Source: Synechococcales cyanobacterium GL140_1_metabat_312 (GTDB lineage: Bacteria > Cyanobacteriota > Cyanobacteriia > Leptolyngbyales > Leptolyngbyaceae). Taken from it: DNA of 34,386 nt. The stretch covers positions 1-34,386 of the forward strand of contig JANXWB010000046.1 in assembly GCA_025351345.1 (NCBI GenBank), read 5' to 3'. Numbering within the stretch: the first letter of the stretch is position 1; every line of letters starts with the position of its first letter. A program made the position numbers and the translations under genes. This document shows, in pieces, positions 326-34,092 of this stretch. Below the pieces are notes generated by a model. It was not told the origin of the DNA, did no database searches, and worked only from the letters and a program-made list of their open reading frames with translations.

Positions 326-2833
326 TTAAGCTGGAACTTCGATCGCCAGCGTTTGCCTTACCAAAGTTGCAACAGGCGTATAAATATCAGCCCCTTCTCC
401 CATCACCCGAATCGAAACAATCAGCGCATACCTAATCTGCTCACCCCAGCGATTATGGATAGGACGATCTTTCCACCATCCGCCTACTGGATAAATACCG
501 ATCGCATCCTTGGCCGCCAAATCAGCAGCAGTTCCCGTCCAAATATCCGAATGCAAGGAACCTCGGTTACGCAATTCGGTACCTAGAAACCAGCCTTTAT
601 CCTCTTTAAAAGAAACTGTATCTCCTTCCTCATGGGCATCCTTGGTTATCCGTTTCTTGAACTCTGGAAGTGGCTCAGTTGCATCTTTAGTGGCAAATCT
701 TAGCCCATAGGAAGGATAAGAATAGCGGCGAACCCAACCTCGTTCTCCTGGATTCGACTCGATAAAGTAGGAAAGTGTGACCCTCATCTCAACATCTCTC
801 TCACCCAAAGACTCCAGTTCCTTTTTTGGCCAGGGAAAGGTATGAAGATTCATATCCTTAGTTGTCACGTTGGACTGCTTTTCTTTCTTCTGAAAAGGCT
901 GAAACCCATCTTCAACAATCATTGTCAAATCATTCTTCGCACTCCGAAGCGCCTTTTCTAAACTCGGTACACCATACCCATAACGTCTGAGCAGAATGTT
1001 TTTGTCCTTTTGCTGTGGTGTAGCAGGCAAATACTTTCGCATCGCTGCTGTCCAAGTCGCTGAGTGAACAATCAAGGCTCGCACCGTCTCCGGCCAAAAA
1101 TTAGGATTTTGAACCAGAATTTGCGCGGTAAAATATCCAGCTAGAGCAGCCGCTGCACTGGTATCACCAAATAGCGTAAACAGGCGTTGCTCGGCTTTGT
1201 GATGAACCGTGAGTAGTCTCAAATCATCTGGATCTGTACCTGCACAAACTCCATCAGTCGCAAGATTTCCCCCTTCAAATACGACATCCGGGCGATTAGG
1301 CCATTGTCGGCCCCAGATACAAGATGTTCTACTTCGAGGTGACAGATCACCAGCAGGCGCGATCGGCTTCCAATGACGGTATTTAGAATTATCTATACTC
1401 ACCCTTTCAGTGAAAGCCCCAACGACTAGTGCATTCCAAGACTGTGCCGGATTCTCAGCGGATGCACTATCGTTGTTGTTAATGTAATCCTGAAGGTTGA
1501 TCTCATTACGAATATTACCAACTGGTAAAATTATTAACCGTTGCACCAATTCATCTGAAACCTTATCTCGACCAAAGCATAGATCGTCGATCGCCGCCGA
1601 CCAAGAGGAAGGAGTTCCTCGATTTAGACCCTCACTGGTTACTGGCATACAAATCACCCGTGTTCGGAATGGAGCTTGTATCTCAGCACGGCTAATACCT
1701 TGCTGCATAATCCATCCATACAGCGCAGGATCATTCTCCCCTTGAGGGGGAAGTATTTTTACTGATTCTAGGCAATGCGAAACCTCGATTTTTTGATTAC
1801 CAACCAGAGCTTCACATAGTTCTCCATACATCAATAGTCCAGACATATTGGTGCCGTGCCCTTCACGAGTATCGTGAGTCTCCCATGCTGGCTCATAGCT
1901 ATGCATATCATCCACGCTGAGGCTATGTTTTAGCAATGGATGAGTTCTCATCACACCACCATCGAGCAAACATATAGAGACATTTGGAGATTGCTCAAAT
2001 ACACATCTATCTAGTAAATCATTCATCCATGCCTGTTGCTCAAGCTCATTATTCTCAAAAAACAACGATGGCATATCCTTCGCAATTCTGAGTTCAGCGA
2101 TCGCATCACACTTACGGATGATTTGTCCAAACTGAACAACATTAGCCAGCGCTAAAACCACTTCACGTTCGACAAATTTAACGGAATGTGGCTGAACCCG
2201 AACATCCAGTCGCTCAGTGATCTCATCAAAACTCTCCTTTCGATCGCCTCTGAGCCAGACCTCCCACCAAACCAACACACTTTGATCTTGCGGAAATAGT
2301 GATTTCTCGTCTGTAAATAATGAAGTAAGAGAACTTAAGAAAAAGGATTCTATTCGGCTAACTAAAGGTTCATTTTTAGGTTTGCCAGTTTTTGTTTCCT
2401 CATTCTCATAAGCAGTAATTTTTTTCGTAAAATCATTCTTCTTACTCTCAGGAACAAATAGTGTCGCCTCCAAATATTCATTGCTATTTGGAGAAACGCT
2501 AACTGACATCAACTCAATCTTAGCCTTACCCCTAAGATTTTCTATGCTTTGAAGCACCTTGTCCTTTTCAGAAACGCTAAACTGTACATCCAAATAGAAC
2601 CCACGCTCACCTACTACATCCGTTTCGGATTCAGATGACTTCCTCTCCTGTTCCAAAGCCTCCAGAACATTGTTCAAATCAGAACGCAGCTTACTAGCAT
2701 GGCTCCCCCGATTTCGTGCAGGGTTAGGCCGTTTATCATTTACTATTTTGGGATATGTATAATCTTGCCGATTTGTAAAAGAGGGATGATGAGGAATACT
2801 CAGATGGGAAAGGTTACGCAGCGATTCGGACAT
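326..2833 (-). CDS. ietS: Subtilisin-like S8 serine protease, IetS-like partner of the AAA ATPase
   Basis: Large subtilase of about 835 residues. With the ATG at 2833 as residue 1, the S8 catalytic triad reads Asp291 (CLLDGGV), His326 (EGHGTNMSG) and Ser559 (GDTSAAAA), with an oxyanion-type Asn in the SWNALVVGA stretch near 467. No signal peptide is seen, so it should act in the cytosol, unlike secreted subtilisins. About 280 residues precede the protease core and about 240 follow it; both flanks are unassigned and may bind a target or the partner. The gene follows the AAA ATPase by 46 bases on the same strand. An AAA ATPase beside a cytosolic subtilase is the known IetAS arrangement, first described as a plasmid stability/incompatibility toxin-antitoxin pair and later as an anti-phage system. 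The frame opens earlier with a TTG at 2866; neither start has a clear ribosome site, so ATG was preferred. The family call is firm, the defence role inferred. Confidence 0.85.
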   Translation of the reverse strand: MSESLRNLSHLSIPHHPSFTNRQDYTYPKIVNDKRPNPARNRGSHASKLRSDLNNVLEALEQERKSSESETDVVGERGFYLDVQFSVSEKDKVLQSIENLRGKAKIELMSVSVSPNSNEYLEATLFVPESKKNDFTKKITAYENEETKTGKPKNEPLVSRIESFFLSSLTSLFTDEKSLFPQDQSVLVWWEVWLRGDRKESFDEITERLDVRVQPHSVKFVEREVVLALANVVQFGQIIRKCDAIAELRIAKDMPSLFFENNELEQQAWMNDLLDRCVFEQSPNVSICLLDGGVMRTHPLLKHSLSVDDMHSYEPAWETHDTREGHGTNMSGLLMYGELCEALVGNQKIEVSHCLESVKILPPQGENDPALYGWIMQQGISRAEIQAPFRTRVICMPVTSEGLNRGTPSSWSAAIDDLCFGRDKVSDELVQRLIILPVGNIRNEINLQDYINNNDSASAENPAQSWNALVVGAFTERVSIDNSKYRHWKPIAPAGDLSPRSRTSCIWGRQWPNRPDVVFEGGNLATDGVCAGTDPDDLRLLTVHHKAEQRLFTLFGDTSAAAALAGYFTAQILVQNPNFWPETVRALIVHSATWTAAMRKYLPATPQQKDKNILLRRYGYGVPSLEKALRSAKNDLTMIVEDGFQPFQKKEKQSNVTTKDMNLHTFPWPKKELESLGERDVEMRVTLSYFIESNPGERGWVRRYSYPSYGLRFATKDATEPLPEFKKRITKDAHEEGDTVSFKEDKGWFLGTELRNRGSLHSDIWTGTAADLAAKDAIGIYPVGGWWKDRPIHNRWGEQIRYALIVSIRVMGEGADIYTPVATLVRQTLAIEVPA

Positions 2834-2879
2834 AATTAAAGGCAAAGATTGATTTTTTAACTCCAAGCAATGAGTCAGT

Positions 2880-3866
2880 TTACCAGTGAGTCATCGATTT
2901 ACGCTCTATGATTGATGAAATTAGCTCATCTTCCAAAATTGTTTTCCTATTCTCTAGAACAGCATTCTTTGCGGATTCCGTAATCGCTCGAATAATTTCA
3001 GCCTGACTCAAGCCTGCAGCGGCTTCCAGAATGCCATCCCAAACTTTCCAGTCCAATCGAAAGGTTACAAGGCGCGATTGAACCAACTTTTTTATAACTT
3101 CTGAGCTAGGCAACTCGTATTGAATCACATCATCAAAGCGTCTATAGAGAGCCTTATCTAAGAGGTCAGGATGATTGGTGGCAGCAATTATCAAACTATC
3201 ACTATCATCATTCTCCAAAAATTGTAAACAAGAATTTAAAACACGTCGAATCTCACCGACATCATTATTGCTAGAACGCTGCGACCCAAGAGCATCAAAC
3301 TCATCAAAAAAATAAACCCCACGAGTAGACGACATTGCCTCAAAAATCAGTTTCAGTTGAGTTGCTGTTTCACCCATAAATTTTGTGAACAGTCCCTCAT
3401 ACATCACTGTAAAGAGAGGGAGCTTTAGTTCTCCAGCGATCGCTGCGGCTGTCATTGATTTACCTGTTCCTGGTGCTCCTACCAAAAGCAGTTTACGCCG
3501 GGGATCTAGATTATGCTGTTTCAAAAGATTTGAGTTTGCCTGTTCAGTCACAACTCTCATTAATCTTTCATACAAATTCTCGGAAAGTACCATGTCTCCC
3601 AGACGCATATCCGAATATCGGGCAGACAGAAGGCTCAGTAAATCACCTTTTGGCTGAATTAAAGGAATAGGCCCGCCTTTCTTGCTGACAAACTGAGATT
3701 TTTGGTCTTTTGCTTGATCGACTAAACCCCGAATCTCTTGAGCAACTTTTCCATGCCCTTGACGTGCCTCATGCGCAGCAACCTGCATCGCAACAGTCAA
3801 AAACTGCTGTTCTTCGCCTTCTATATGACTCTTCAAAAGAGCAATGACTTGACGAGCAGTCGACAT
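2880..3866 (-). CDS. ietA: AAA+ ATPase, IetA-like, first gene of the ATPase/subtilase operon
   Basis: 328-residue single AAA+ module. The Walker A is GAPGTGKS at 130-137, Walker B VYFFDEFDA at 184-192, sensor-1 Asn231 in ATNHPDLLDKAL, and the arginine-finger pair R242/R243 in YRRFD. This is the FtsH/spastin-like group of classical AAA proteins. The first roughly 80 residues form a helical N-terminal region with no known domain I can name, probably the substrate or partner adaptor. There is no membrane segment and no protease domain of its own; the protease is the next gene, 46 bases downstream. By analogy with the ietAS pair, this protein either restrains or feeds the protease. ATG at 3866 is the only reasonable start, but it lacks a clear Shine-Dalgarno; a strong one (GGAGGAG) lies about 52 bases upstream. 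A perfect TTGACA box is found further up. Confidence 0.85.
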   Translation of the reverse strand: MSTARQVIALLKSHIEGEEQQFLTVAMQVAAHEARQGHGKVAQEIRGLVDQAKDQKSQFVSKKGGPIPLIQPKGDLLSLLSARYSDMRLGDMVLSENLYERLMRVVTEQANSNLLKQHNLDPRRKLLLVGAPGTGKSMTAAAIAGELKLPLFTVMYEGLFTKFMGETATQLKLIFEAMSSTRGVYFFDEFDALGSQRSSNNDVGEIRRVLNSCLQFLENDDSDSLIIAATNHPDLLDKALYRRFDDVIQYELPSSEVIKKLVQSRLVTFRLDWKVWDGILEAAAGLSQAEIIRAITESAKNAVLENRKTILEDELISSIIERKSMTHW

Positions 3867-31779: not shown

Positions 31780-32253
31780 TTAGATCTCCGATGGAATAAG
31801 GACGTTGTAGGGTGGTTCGGTGGCTCTCAAGATTCTGGCTTCTAGCTCCAATAATAGCGCAGGGTCTTCCCAGGGTGAGAGAGGATAAAGGGAAAGGCGC
31901 ACGTCTTCGTCGTTGTATTTGTCGAGCCAGGACCAGAGAAAGGCTTTGTGTCCTCCGCTGAAGCGACCGCGCAAACTTTTGGATTTACCGATGTAGAGGA
32001 GTCCGATTGATCGGTGTCTGACGGCGTAGAGTCCAGGTCTTGCGGGGATGTTGGTAAAGTTTCGCTGTAGGGTTTGGCAGCGATCGAAGGGCTGAAAGGC
32101 AAGGGTATTAAGGATTTGGTCAGCTTCTTGGGAAAGGTCGGTCATAGTTAGGATGCGATCGGTTGGGTGATTGCGATCGTAATATATGGAGATGGCTGCA
32201 AGGTCGTCAGAATCGAATGTTATTTTAATATTTTGACTGAGCTTATAATTCAT
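31780..32253 (-). CDS. GIY-YIG family nuclease domain protein
   Basis: 157 residues. The C-terminal 90 residues are a minimal GIY-YIG fold: GLYAV at 74-78, LLYIGKS at 85-91, the catalytic arginine in SLRGRF (Arg95 or 97), the metal-binding Glu in LLELEARIL (136 or 138) and Asn150 in PPYN. The N-terminal 70 residues are unassigned. Such small cyanobacterial proteins are homologous to the UvrC/SLX1/homing-enzyme nuclease core, but the DNA substrate is unknown. ATG at 32253 is the longest start; ATG at 32145, 36 codons on, would retain the whole nuclease domain. The next gene (68 residues) follows after four bases, and uvrB lies beyond. It is not UvrC, being far too short. Confidence 0.75.
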   Translation of the reverse strand: MNYKLSQNIKITFDSDDLAAISIYYDRNHPTDRILTMTDLSQEADQILNTLAFQPFDRCQTLQRNFTNIPARPGLYAVRHRSIGLLYIGKSKSLRGRFSGGHKAFLWSWLDKYNDEDVRLSLYPLSPWEDPALLLELEARILRATEPPYNVLIPSEI

Positions 32254-32382: not shown

Positions 32383-34092
32383 ATGGATAAGATTACCCGG
32401 AATCTACTTGAAAATTTTGTTGGAGAGAATGAACTCGAACGGCTTGAAGAGTTTAAGCAATTTGAGTATTTTGTAAATTATGTAGTAGTATCAAAATTAC
32501 ATAGAAGTAGTTTTGAACTTGATTCTTTGGACACAGGGGAAGGTGGTGATGTCGCAATTGACGGGCTTGCTGTTATTGTCAACGGCAGACTTATTACAGA
32601 CGTGGATGAACTCGACGATATAGTTTCTGATAGCAAATATCTCGATTGTGATGTAGCATTCATACAGTCAAAAACATCTTCAAAATTTGAGGGTTCTGAA
32701 ATAGGATCTTTTATTTTTGGTGTCAAAGATTTTATTTCTGATCAACCAAAGCTTGTTCATAACGAAAAAATGAAGAAGCTAAAGGAAATTTGGGAGGCTG
32801 TTATCAGTAAGTCATCCTATATGGTCCATCGCCGCCCAAATTGCAAACTTTACTACGCGACAACGGGGAAATGGATTGACGATCAAAATCTTAGAGCTGT
32901 GGTTTCTTCGGGACAGATTGAAATAGAAGATAGCGGTCTATTTCAGGAAACTTTCTTTGAACCTTATGGAGCAAGCGAGCTTCAAAGGCTCTACCATGAA
33001 ACTCGTAACAAGTTGTCAAGTACAGTTACATTCCAGAATAGGATTACCTTGCCAGATATTGATGGGGTTAAAGAAGCTTTCCTTGGAATATTACCATTTC
33101 AAGAATTTCTAAAACTCATTCAGGACAGTAATGAGTCTATGTACAGCATATTTTATGACAATGTACGAGATTTCCAAGGTGAAAATGAAGTAAATGCTAA
33201 AATCAAAGATACGCTAGATAATGGTAAGTTTGACTTGTTCTGCGTCTTAAACAATGGGGTTACTCTTGTTGCCACATCTCTGACCCCTGCTGGCAATAAA
33301 TTCACCCTCAGAGACTACCAAATAGTAAATGGTTGTCAGACTAGTCATGTACTTCACAAGTCCAAGTCTATTGAAGGAATGAATCGTGTAAACGTGCCAG
33401 TTAAAGTAATTGTTACTGAAGATGAAGATATTAAAAATCAGATTACTCTAGCAACAAATAGCCAAACAGAAGTTAAGCCAGAACAACTGGCTTCTTTAAC
33501 ACTTTTTCAGAAGAAGCTTGAACTCTATTACAATTCAATGAAGGGGGGTGTAGATCTGTATTATGAGCGAAGATCGCAGCAGTATCATGCAACTCCCGAA
33601 GTCAAGAAGACACAAATCATCTCAATACCAATTCAAATTAAAACATTTGCATCAGCTTTTCTGAATGCACCACACTTAGTCTCTGGTTACTATGGAACAA
33701 TTGCAAGAAGATTTCCAGGGAAGATCTTTGAGAGTAATCACAAACATTCCCCATACTATGCTAGTGCCCTATGCTACTACAGGCTGGAGGGCTTATTTCG
33801 TAATAACATTATTGATGTACGCTACAAGAAGCTTCGATTTCACATGATTATGATTGCGAGAATGTTGTCGATGGAATCAGTTGAGATTCCACTATTAAAT
33901 AGCAATAAAATTGAGAAGAATTCAGAGAAATTTATCAGAATTCTGAACGATGATATCAAGTGTACTGAGCTGTTCAGTATGGTCGTAGAAATCTTTGATC
34001 AATCTAATTTAGATTTATCGAAAAGACAGTTCAAGGCAGAGAGTGAGAGTGATTTGTTGATAAGTAAGTTGAAGTTGAAACTAGAGAAATAA
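32383..34092 (+). CDS. AIPR-family abortive-infection phage-resistance protein
   Basis: 569 residues. The family hallmarks are VRDFQGEN at 261-268, LNNGVTLVA at 289-297 and QIVNGCQTS at 313-321, in the right order and spacing. The N-terminus has GEGGDVAIDGLAV (Asp56 and Asp60) and DVAFIQSKTS (Gln95, Lys97), a pattern like the D...QxK core of PD-(D/E)XK nucleases, so it may cut nucleic acid when triggered. AIPR proteins were defined by phage-abortive-infection phenotypes; the trigger is unknown. No partner gene is next to it, so it acts alone or with unlinked genes. It is AT-rich relative to uvrB and lies between the GIY-YIG pair and the broken carB, which suggests gain by transfer. Confidence 0.85.
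   Translation: MDKITRNLLENFVGENELERLEEFKQFEYFVNYVVVSKLHRSSFELDSLDTGEGGDVAIDGLAVIVNGRLITDVDELDDIVSDSKYLDCDVAFIQSKTSSKFEGSEIGSFIFGVKDFISDQPKLVHNEKMKKLKEIWEAVISKSSYMVHRRPNCKLYYATTGKWIDDQNLRAVVSSGQIEIEDSGLFQETFFEPYGASELQRLYHETRNKLSSTVTFQNRITLPDIDGVKEAFLGILPFQEFLKLIQDSNESMYSIFYDNVRDFQGENEVNAKIKDTLDNGKFDLFCVLNNGVTLVATSLTPAGNKFTLRDYQIVNGCQTSHVLHKSKSIEGMNRVNVPVKVIVTEDEDIKNQITLATNSQTEVKPEQLASLTLFQKKLELYYNSMKGGVDLYYERRSQQYHATPEVKKTQIISIPIQIKTFASAFLNAPHLVSGYYGTIARRFPGKIFESNHKHSPYYASALCYYRLEGLFRNNIIDVRYKKLRFHMIMIARMLSMESVEIPLLNSNKIEKNSEKFIRILNDDIKCTELFSMVVEIFDQSNLDLSKRQFKAESESDLLISKLKLKLEK

Follow-up and report, generated by a model that had tools for sequence, protein, structure and literature searches.

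Whether two adjoining genes for an AAA ATPase and a subtilisin-like protease form a genuine functional pair, and of which kind, is the question raised by one end of contig JANXWB010000046.1 from Synechococcales cyanobacterium GL140_1_metabat_312. This contig of 34,386 nucleotides, here called the window, was analysed as a whole and is one of the 100 contigs (C62) of a 3.85-Mb genome. An earlier note, made from the letters of the window alone, had described two minus-strand genes at positions 326-3866 and likened them to ietAS, known as a toxin-antitoxin pair and as an anti-phage system. Both open reading frames are found at those positions: ietA (3866-2880) encodes 328 residues with one AAA+ module and lies upstream of ietS (2833-326), an S8 subtilase gene, at a distance of 46 bp, and the two are probably carried on one transcript. 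The frame of ietS opens at a TTG at 2866, which would give 846 residues, and the starts of its relatives align with the ATG at 2833, in agreement with the 835 residues given before. The pair is a new example of a known system, the IetAS type first found on the Agrobacterium plasmid pTiC58, and judged from its sequence it appears to be a genuine IetAS unit of that founding toxin-antitoxin clade.

The likeness to IetAS is borne out by profile searches, in which the PADLOC IetAS models, rather than unrelated housekeeping AAA proteins and secreted subtilases, are the top matches of both proteins. The scores, given as bits without PADLOC's own cut-offs, are 240 for IetA (residues 2-325 of 328) and 88.5 and 83.1 for the IetS models, and no other family comes near these values. 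Every one of the 59 IetS sequences in our alignment also matches the IetS models. Aligned end to end with the pTiC58 proteins, IetA is 58% identical over 323 residues and IetS 44% over 849 columns, and the plasmid record (NC_003065.3) has its ATP-binding protein and S8 peptidase genes in the same order as the window. The record itself names the two genes merely "ATP-binding protein" and "S8 family peptidase". The NCBIfam equivalog models of the anti-phage proteins, there called IteA and IteS (NF042956 and NF042959, with cut-offs of 510 and 900 bits), are matched by the window pair with only 197 and 32 bits and by the pTiC58 pair with 199 and 40 bits. Because the match to pTiC58 runs end to end and the NCBIfam scores are equally low, the window pair is placed with the founding clade and not with the anti-phage equivalog clade. 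The toxin-antitoxin part of the earlier description thus fits the clade, and the anti-phage part falls short of the cut-offs; we infer an anti-phage activity of the window pair from more distant relatives. A further group of cyanobacterial pairs (A5), itself more distant, is homologous over 756 aligned IetS columns by profile comparison, the N-terminal part included but weak, and is nearer to the anti-phage NCBIfam model than the window pair, yet still under its cut-off.

Distant genomes have the pair too, with the genes likewise ordered and sharing a strand. Relatives of IetS are present in 26 of 386 cyanobacterial genomes, the window's own counted. The 26 other loci taken from these genomes each have an IetA-type gene upstream of the protease gene and in the same orientation; at L063 and L064 it was the initial search for relatives, and not the stricter tblastn, that detected the protease. 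The wider list was obtained by an alignment-based query of genome contigs, which succeeded where a single-protein query gave no matches. It holds the best 80 of at least 561 relatives and spans Cyanobacteria, Alphaproteobacteria, Deltaproteobacteria, Acidobacteria, Planctomycetes, Bacteroidia, Chloroflexi and Gemmatimonadetes. Of 81 further loci from the genome and viral collections, 75 have an IetA-type gene upstream, mostly no more than 50 bp away; five of the other six start at a contig end, and in the sixth (L104) IetS is cut N-terminally by a Mutator-family transposase gene. Wherever an IetS relative is intact and has enough sequence upstream, ietA is present, and the pair is nearly inseparable. 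The pairwise distances of IetA and of IetS are also strongly correlated (r=0.894 over 58 loci, the best of 1000 label shuffles reaching 0.155); this shows joint movement of the two genes and does not separate co-adaptation from joint inheritance. Since AAA and S8 are both large and common families, the two genes might be suspected to be neighbours by chance, an ordinary housekeeping AAA gene next to a protease gene with no link between them. This reading is refuted by the near-strict pairing over phyla, and the co-variation, the full-length identity to pTiC58 and the patchy distribution leave it a negligible probability.

Both active sites are intact. The complete catalytic triad described before is confirmed as Asp291, His326 and Ser559, which together with the oxyanion residue Asn440 are invariant in 59 of 59 sequences. 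The reported lack of a signal peptide also holds, as no 19-residue Kyte-Doolittle mean within the first 50 positions exceeds -0.41, and the absence of a hydrophobic leader led us to reject a secreted protease. IetA is a single-module AAA ATPase, as had been claimed, with complete Walker A and Walker B motifs (Asp188, Glu189), Asn231 and Arg242/Arg243, the key residues again invariant in 59 of 59.

Mutations of conserved residues in the pTiC58 IetS and IetA reportedly pointed to a need for protease activity and ATP binding (Yamamoto et al., 2009). SgiT, the protease of a homologous pair, is toxic to Escherichia coli in less than 30 min, and its partner SgiA prevents the toxicity (PMC5006074); in a minimised mycoplasma, deletion of the ATPase of the A132/T133 pair alone is lethal, and deletion of the protease or of both genes is not (PMC8562856). 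In these homologues, then, a harmful protease is neutralised by its ATPase, and the model with the best support is that of a protease toxin which the ATPase keeps in check. IetS would then be a cytosolic subtilisin-fold protease harmful to its own cell, kept harmless by IetA, a presumably ring-forming AAA+ ATPase from the same transcript. Loss of IetA along with the element, or its inactivation by, say, an incoming phage or plasmid, would free IetS to cut cell proteins; the cell would be stopped or killed, by which the genes could be stabilised and an infection aborted. The window copy is expected to be active, and the restraint by IetA to be direct and ATP-dependent; the trigger of the release and the targets of IetS are conjectured in this scheme. 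Taken as a whole, a founding-clade IetAS whose protease toxin is controlled by the ATPase and released upon its loss or disturbance is what we consider the window pair likely to be. Several observations weigh against this. The anti-phage part rests on the more distant clade, as the NCBIfam cut-offs are missed widely; no obvious defence island surrounds the pair, whose neighbours are a PPOX flavoprotein gene and glycan-type genes; and SgiAT expressed from its own promoter gave no post-segregational killing (PMC5006074), so that the role of such pairs may go beyond simple addiction.

The structure of IetA bears on a different possibility. Its AlphaFold2 model (mean pLDDT 86.6) has three helices, then a low-confidence linker, then the ATPase. 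In the N-terminal helical region Ala30, Ala31, Gly37 and Ala42 are invariant in 59 of 59 relatives; that these helices are MIT-like, of the Vps4 type, is only a guess. The nearest solved folds to residues 72-328 are PAN (Z 24.2, 250 residues, rmsd 3.1), the 26S Rpt subunits and FtsH; Vps4 follows closely. IetA could therefore be imagined as the ring of an ATP-driven protease machine, which would unfold specific phage or plasmid proteins and thread them into IetS, the toxicity of lone IetS being unregulated cleavage. The protease-partner motors among the nearest folds would suit such a machine, as would the paired arginines and the aromatic-Met/Leu-Gly pore loop, which by its sequence looks typical of threading ATPases, and two propeptide-like units of IetS could gate the active site. 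All the fold matches are, however, classical AAA motors, and fits of this quality are obtained throughout the family, also with Vps4 and p97, so that they single out no function. Subtilisin active sites, moreover, are open clefts and not chambers, which counts against a threading machine. In the homologues the protease acts without the ATPase, which suppresses it (PMC5006074, PMC8562856), and on balance we regard a threading machine as unlikely.

The earlier note had left both flanks of the protease unexplained by the S8 fold, at about 280 and 240 residues, and suggested that they may hold a sensor or target-binding unit. The N-terminal flank is indeed 283 residues long, and the C-terminal one is shorter than thought (214 residues). 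Both are features of the family and not peculiar to the window protein, and most of both is confidently predicted in the AlphaFold2 model built with 59 sequences (mean pLDDT 87.4, pTM 0.75). The C-terminal flank adopts a known add-on fold of subtilases: VIA-align of residues 280-808 gives KP-43 (1wmd) at Z 25.5 and SubHal (5fax) at Z 25.4, with about 380 residues aligned. The N-terminal flank, likewise family-wide, has two alpha/beta units in the model. The second resembles a subtilisin propeptide both in the order of its elements and in its position. A Foldseek search with the whole model ranked ProN-Tk-SP first (E 1.9e-19), a subtilase whose crystal structure retains the propeptide. The two units may thus be homologues of propeptides. 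No solved IetS structure was found in the PDB, where phmmer with IetS alone gave no match and a profile gave only ordinary subtilisins over the catalytic region. Within IetS the sequence varies most in the N-terminal region, whose mean column entropy is 2.0-2.4 bits as compared with 1.6 in the protease and 1.5 in the C-terminus, and for this reason a sensor or docking role is possible there. The linker that follows is as conserved as the catalytic domain (1.48 for residues 245-262 versus 1.58), and a fair hypothesis is that a variable docking or sensing surface lies beside a fixed linker. The positions of these parts are collected in Table 1.

Table 1. Features of the ietAS pair, with positions in the window.
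Feature	Positions	Strand	Basis
ietA, single-module classical AAA+ ATPase (328 aa), putative antitoxin/regulator	2880..3866	-	Pfam AAA 101 bits; PADLOC IetA 240 bits; 58% identity to pTiC58 IetA over 323 aa
IetA N-terminal three-helix region, residues 1-61, family-specific, conserved A-A-H-E-A-R-x-G-H motif	3684..3866	-	AlphaFold2 helices 2-15, 19-35, 39-61
IetA Walker A GAPGTGKS, residues 130-137	3456..3479	-	Alignment of 59 sequences
IetA pore loop F-M-G, residues 163-165	3372..3380	-	Aromatic 56/59, Gly 59/59
IetA Walker B region VYFFDEF, residues 184-190 (Asp188, Glu189), motif FFDEFD	3297..3317	-	Alignment of 59 sequences
IetA paired arginines R242-R243, putative arginine fingers	3138..3143	-	Invariant 59/59
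ietS, cytosolic S8 subtilase (835 aa), putative protease toxin	326..2833	-	Pfam S8 188 bits; PADLOC IetS; 44% identity to pTiC58 IetS over whole length
IetS N-terminal alpha/beta unit 1, residues 78-166, possibly propeptide-like	2336..2602	-	AlphaFold2 secondary structure
IetS N-terminal alpha/beta unit 2, residues 188-250, beta-alpha-beta-beta-alpha-beta, directly before catalytic domain	2084..2272	-	AlphaFold2 model
IetS linker joining unit 2 to the protease, residues 245-258, conserved (consensus IAELRRAKETxxFF)	2060..2101	-	Alignment conservation
IetS S8 catalytic domain, residues 284-621	971..1984	-	Pfam Peptidase_S8 188 bits
IetS catalytic Asp291	1961..1963	-	59/59
IetS catalytic His326	1856..1858	-	59/59
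IetS oxyanion Asn440	1514..1516	-	59/59
IetS catalytic Ser559	1157..1159	-	59/59
IetS C-terminal beta-sandwich, residues 622-835, KP-43/SubHal type	329..970	-	VIA-align to 1wmd, 5fax

Among 64 non-redundant loci of relatives no general third gene recurs near ietAS. In seven of the 64 (a raw count), from different phyla, genes of DNA modification do have the orientation of ietAS and lie close enough to it for an operon. They comprise the type I genes HsdS, 28 bp upstream (L107), and HsdM, 25, 41 and 45 bp downstream (L115, L120 and L136), and the type III Mod gene 17, 28 and 80 bp upstream (L134, L148 and L138); these assignments rest on family-model scans of L107 and L148 and, for the other five, on BLAST matches to those two. 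At L148 (3963-12514) Mod, ietA, ietS and a helicase form a cluster of four genes; the helicase is of UvrD type, its family matches GajB weakly, and its gene begins where ietS ends. It is possible that ietAS and restriction-modification genes share operons in such loci, and these neighbours support a defence role of the IetAS family. By analogy IetAS might guard a restriction system, much as PrrC guards EcoprrI. A bolder proposal would join this with the anatomy of IetS: IetAS would be a kind of ATP-controlled protease not described before, the two propeptide-like units serving as an intrinsic inhibitor of IetS that the AAA+ ring clamps or lets go. In some lineages it would guard the adjoining restriction-modification system and fire when that system is blocked. 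We hold this to be a rather improbable scheme. Separately, in five Mesorhizobium loci (L078, L083, L094, L114 and L140) ietAS lies near a gene for a Prokaryotic-E2/ThiF (BilD-like) protein, which suggests a ubiquitin-like defence cluster downstream of ietAS there.

The window can be inferred to be cyanobacterial from three signs: its HIP1 content, its PPOX gene and the best plasmid match of its IetS. The HIP1 octamer GCGATCGC occurs 20 times in the window as against 0.5 expected, and one site lies within each gene of the pair (2097-2104 in ietS, 3436-3443 in ietA), which would fit genes long resident in such a genome. The pair begins 325 bp from the left contig end, and the adjoining gene matches the cyanobacterial PPOX family TIGR04026 of NCBIfam. 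No IetS was found in three other genomes of the genus; two of them keep the PPOX gene (89% and 79% DNA identity) without ietAS beside it, so that ietAS is variably present at this site. Relatives are found in 482 plasmid records, with 340 typed as conjugative, and no plasmid replication gene was noticed in the window. The best plasmid match of the window IetS is from Leptolyngbya boryana, and the L. boryana and Geminocystis plasmid copies adjoin integrase genes. On the L. boryana plasmid a trypsin-like peptidase of 956 residues with weak PADLOC LmuA and RT-Protease matches (L150, 12451-15321) is also encoded near the integrase and ietAS. At the opposite end of the window lies a full-length gene for an AbiU/AIPR protein of an abortive-infection family (32383-34092, plus strand; PADLOC AbiU 438 bits, Pfam PF10592), adjoined by a small GIY-YIG frame (31780-32253, minus strand).

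The same genome holds a second ietA-like gene (L068, C99:130-681, minus strand), 63% identical to IetA residues 1-175, whose Walker A reads GPPGASKT with the usual glycine lost. It runs into a sequence of which the genome has five copies, one within contig C6 and the others at contig ends, and has the appearance of an ietA disrupted by a mobile element, likely an insertion element; a second IetS was not found in the genome. This interrupted copy, and broken IetS copies elsewhere, such as in genome G357, raise the thought that the window pair is itself a decayed remnant that no longer works. As both of its frames are full length and keep every catalytic residue, decay is very improbable here.

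The mechanism of IetAS was called unknown in papers of 2023 and 2025 (PMC9958689, PMC11878078). The window pair adds a cyanobacterial member to the founding clade and offers parts for testing, namely the N-terminal units of IetS, the conserved linker that leads into its protease domain, and the IetA pore loop. It also makes plain that the name IetAS covers at least two clades with different evidence, toxin-antitoxin in one and anti-phage in the other, and automatic "anti-phage" labels on the pTiC58 clade therefore exceed the data.

Among known systems, the KP-43 and SubHal subtilases share with IetS the catalytic domain followed by a C-terminal beta-sandwich, but the alignment begins at residue 280 and nothing in them matches the N-terminal region of IetS. 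To our knowledge, they have no ATPase partner. The anti-phage IetAS systems have the same architecture, and their PADLOC models match both window proteins, whereas by the low IteA and IteS scores the window pair comes from another clade than the NCBIfam models describe. The mycoplasma A132/T133 pair of an AAA-ATPase and a subtilisin-like protease resembles the window pair in its described arrangement and toxin-antitoxin behaviour (PMC8562856), and SgiAT of Salmonella Genomic Island 1 (S026-S025) is of the same two-gene type and a demonstrated toxin-antitoxin pair (PMC5006074), although more distant, the 36% identity given there for SgiT being to the pTiC58 IetS and not directly to the window protein. 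Closest is the pTiC58 IetAS itself (WP_012655016.1 and WP_010974867.1), which differs in its setting, a Ti plasmid versus a cyanobacterial contig, and in an intergenic distance of 3 bp versus 46 bp, and is alike in gene order, in protein lengths (328 and 836 residues against 328 and 835) and in sequence over both proteins.

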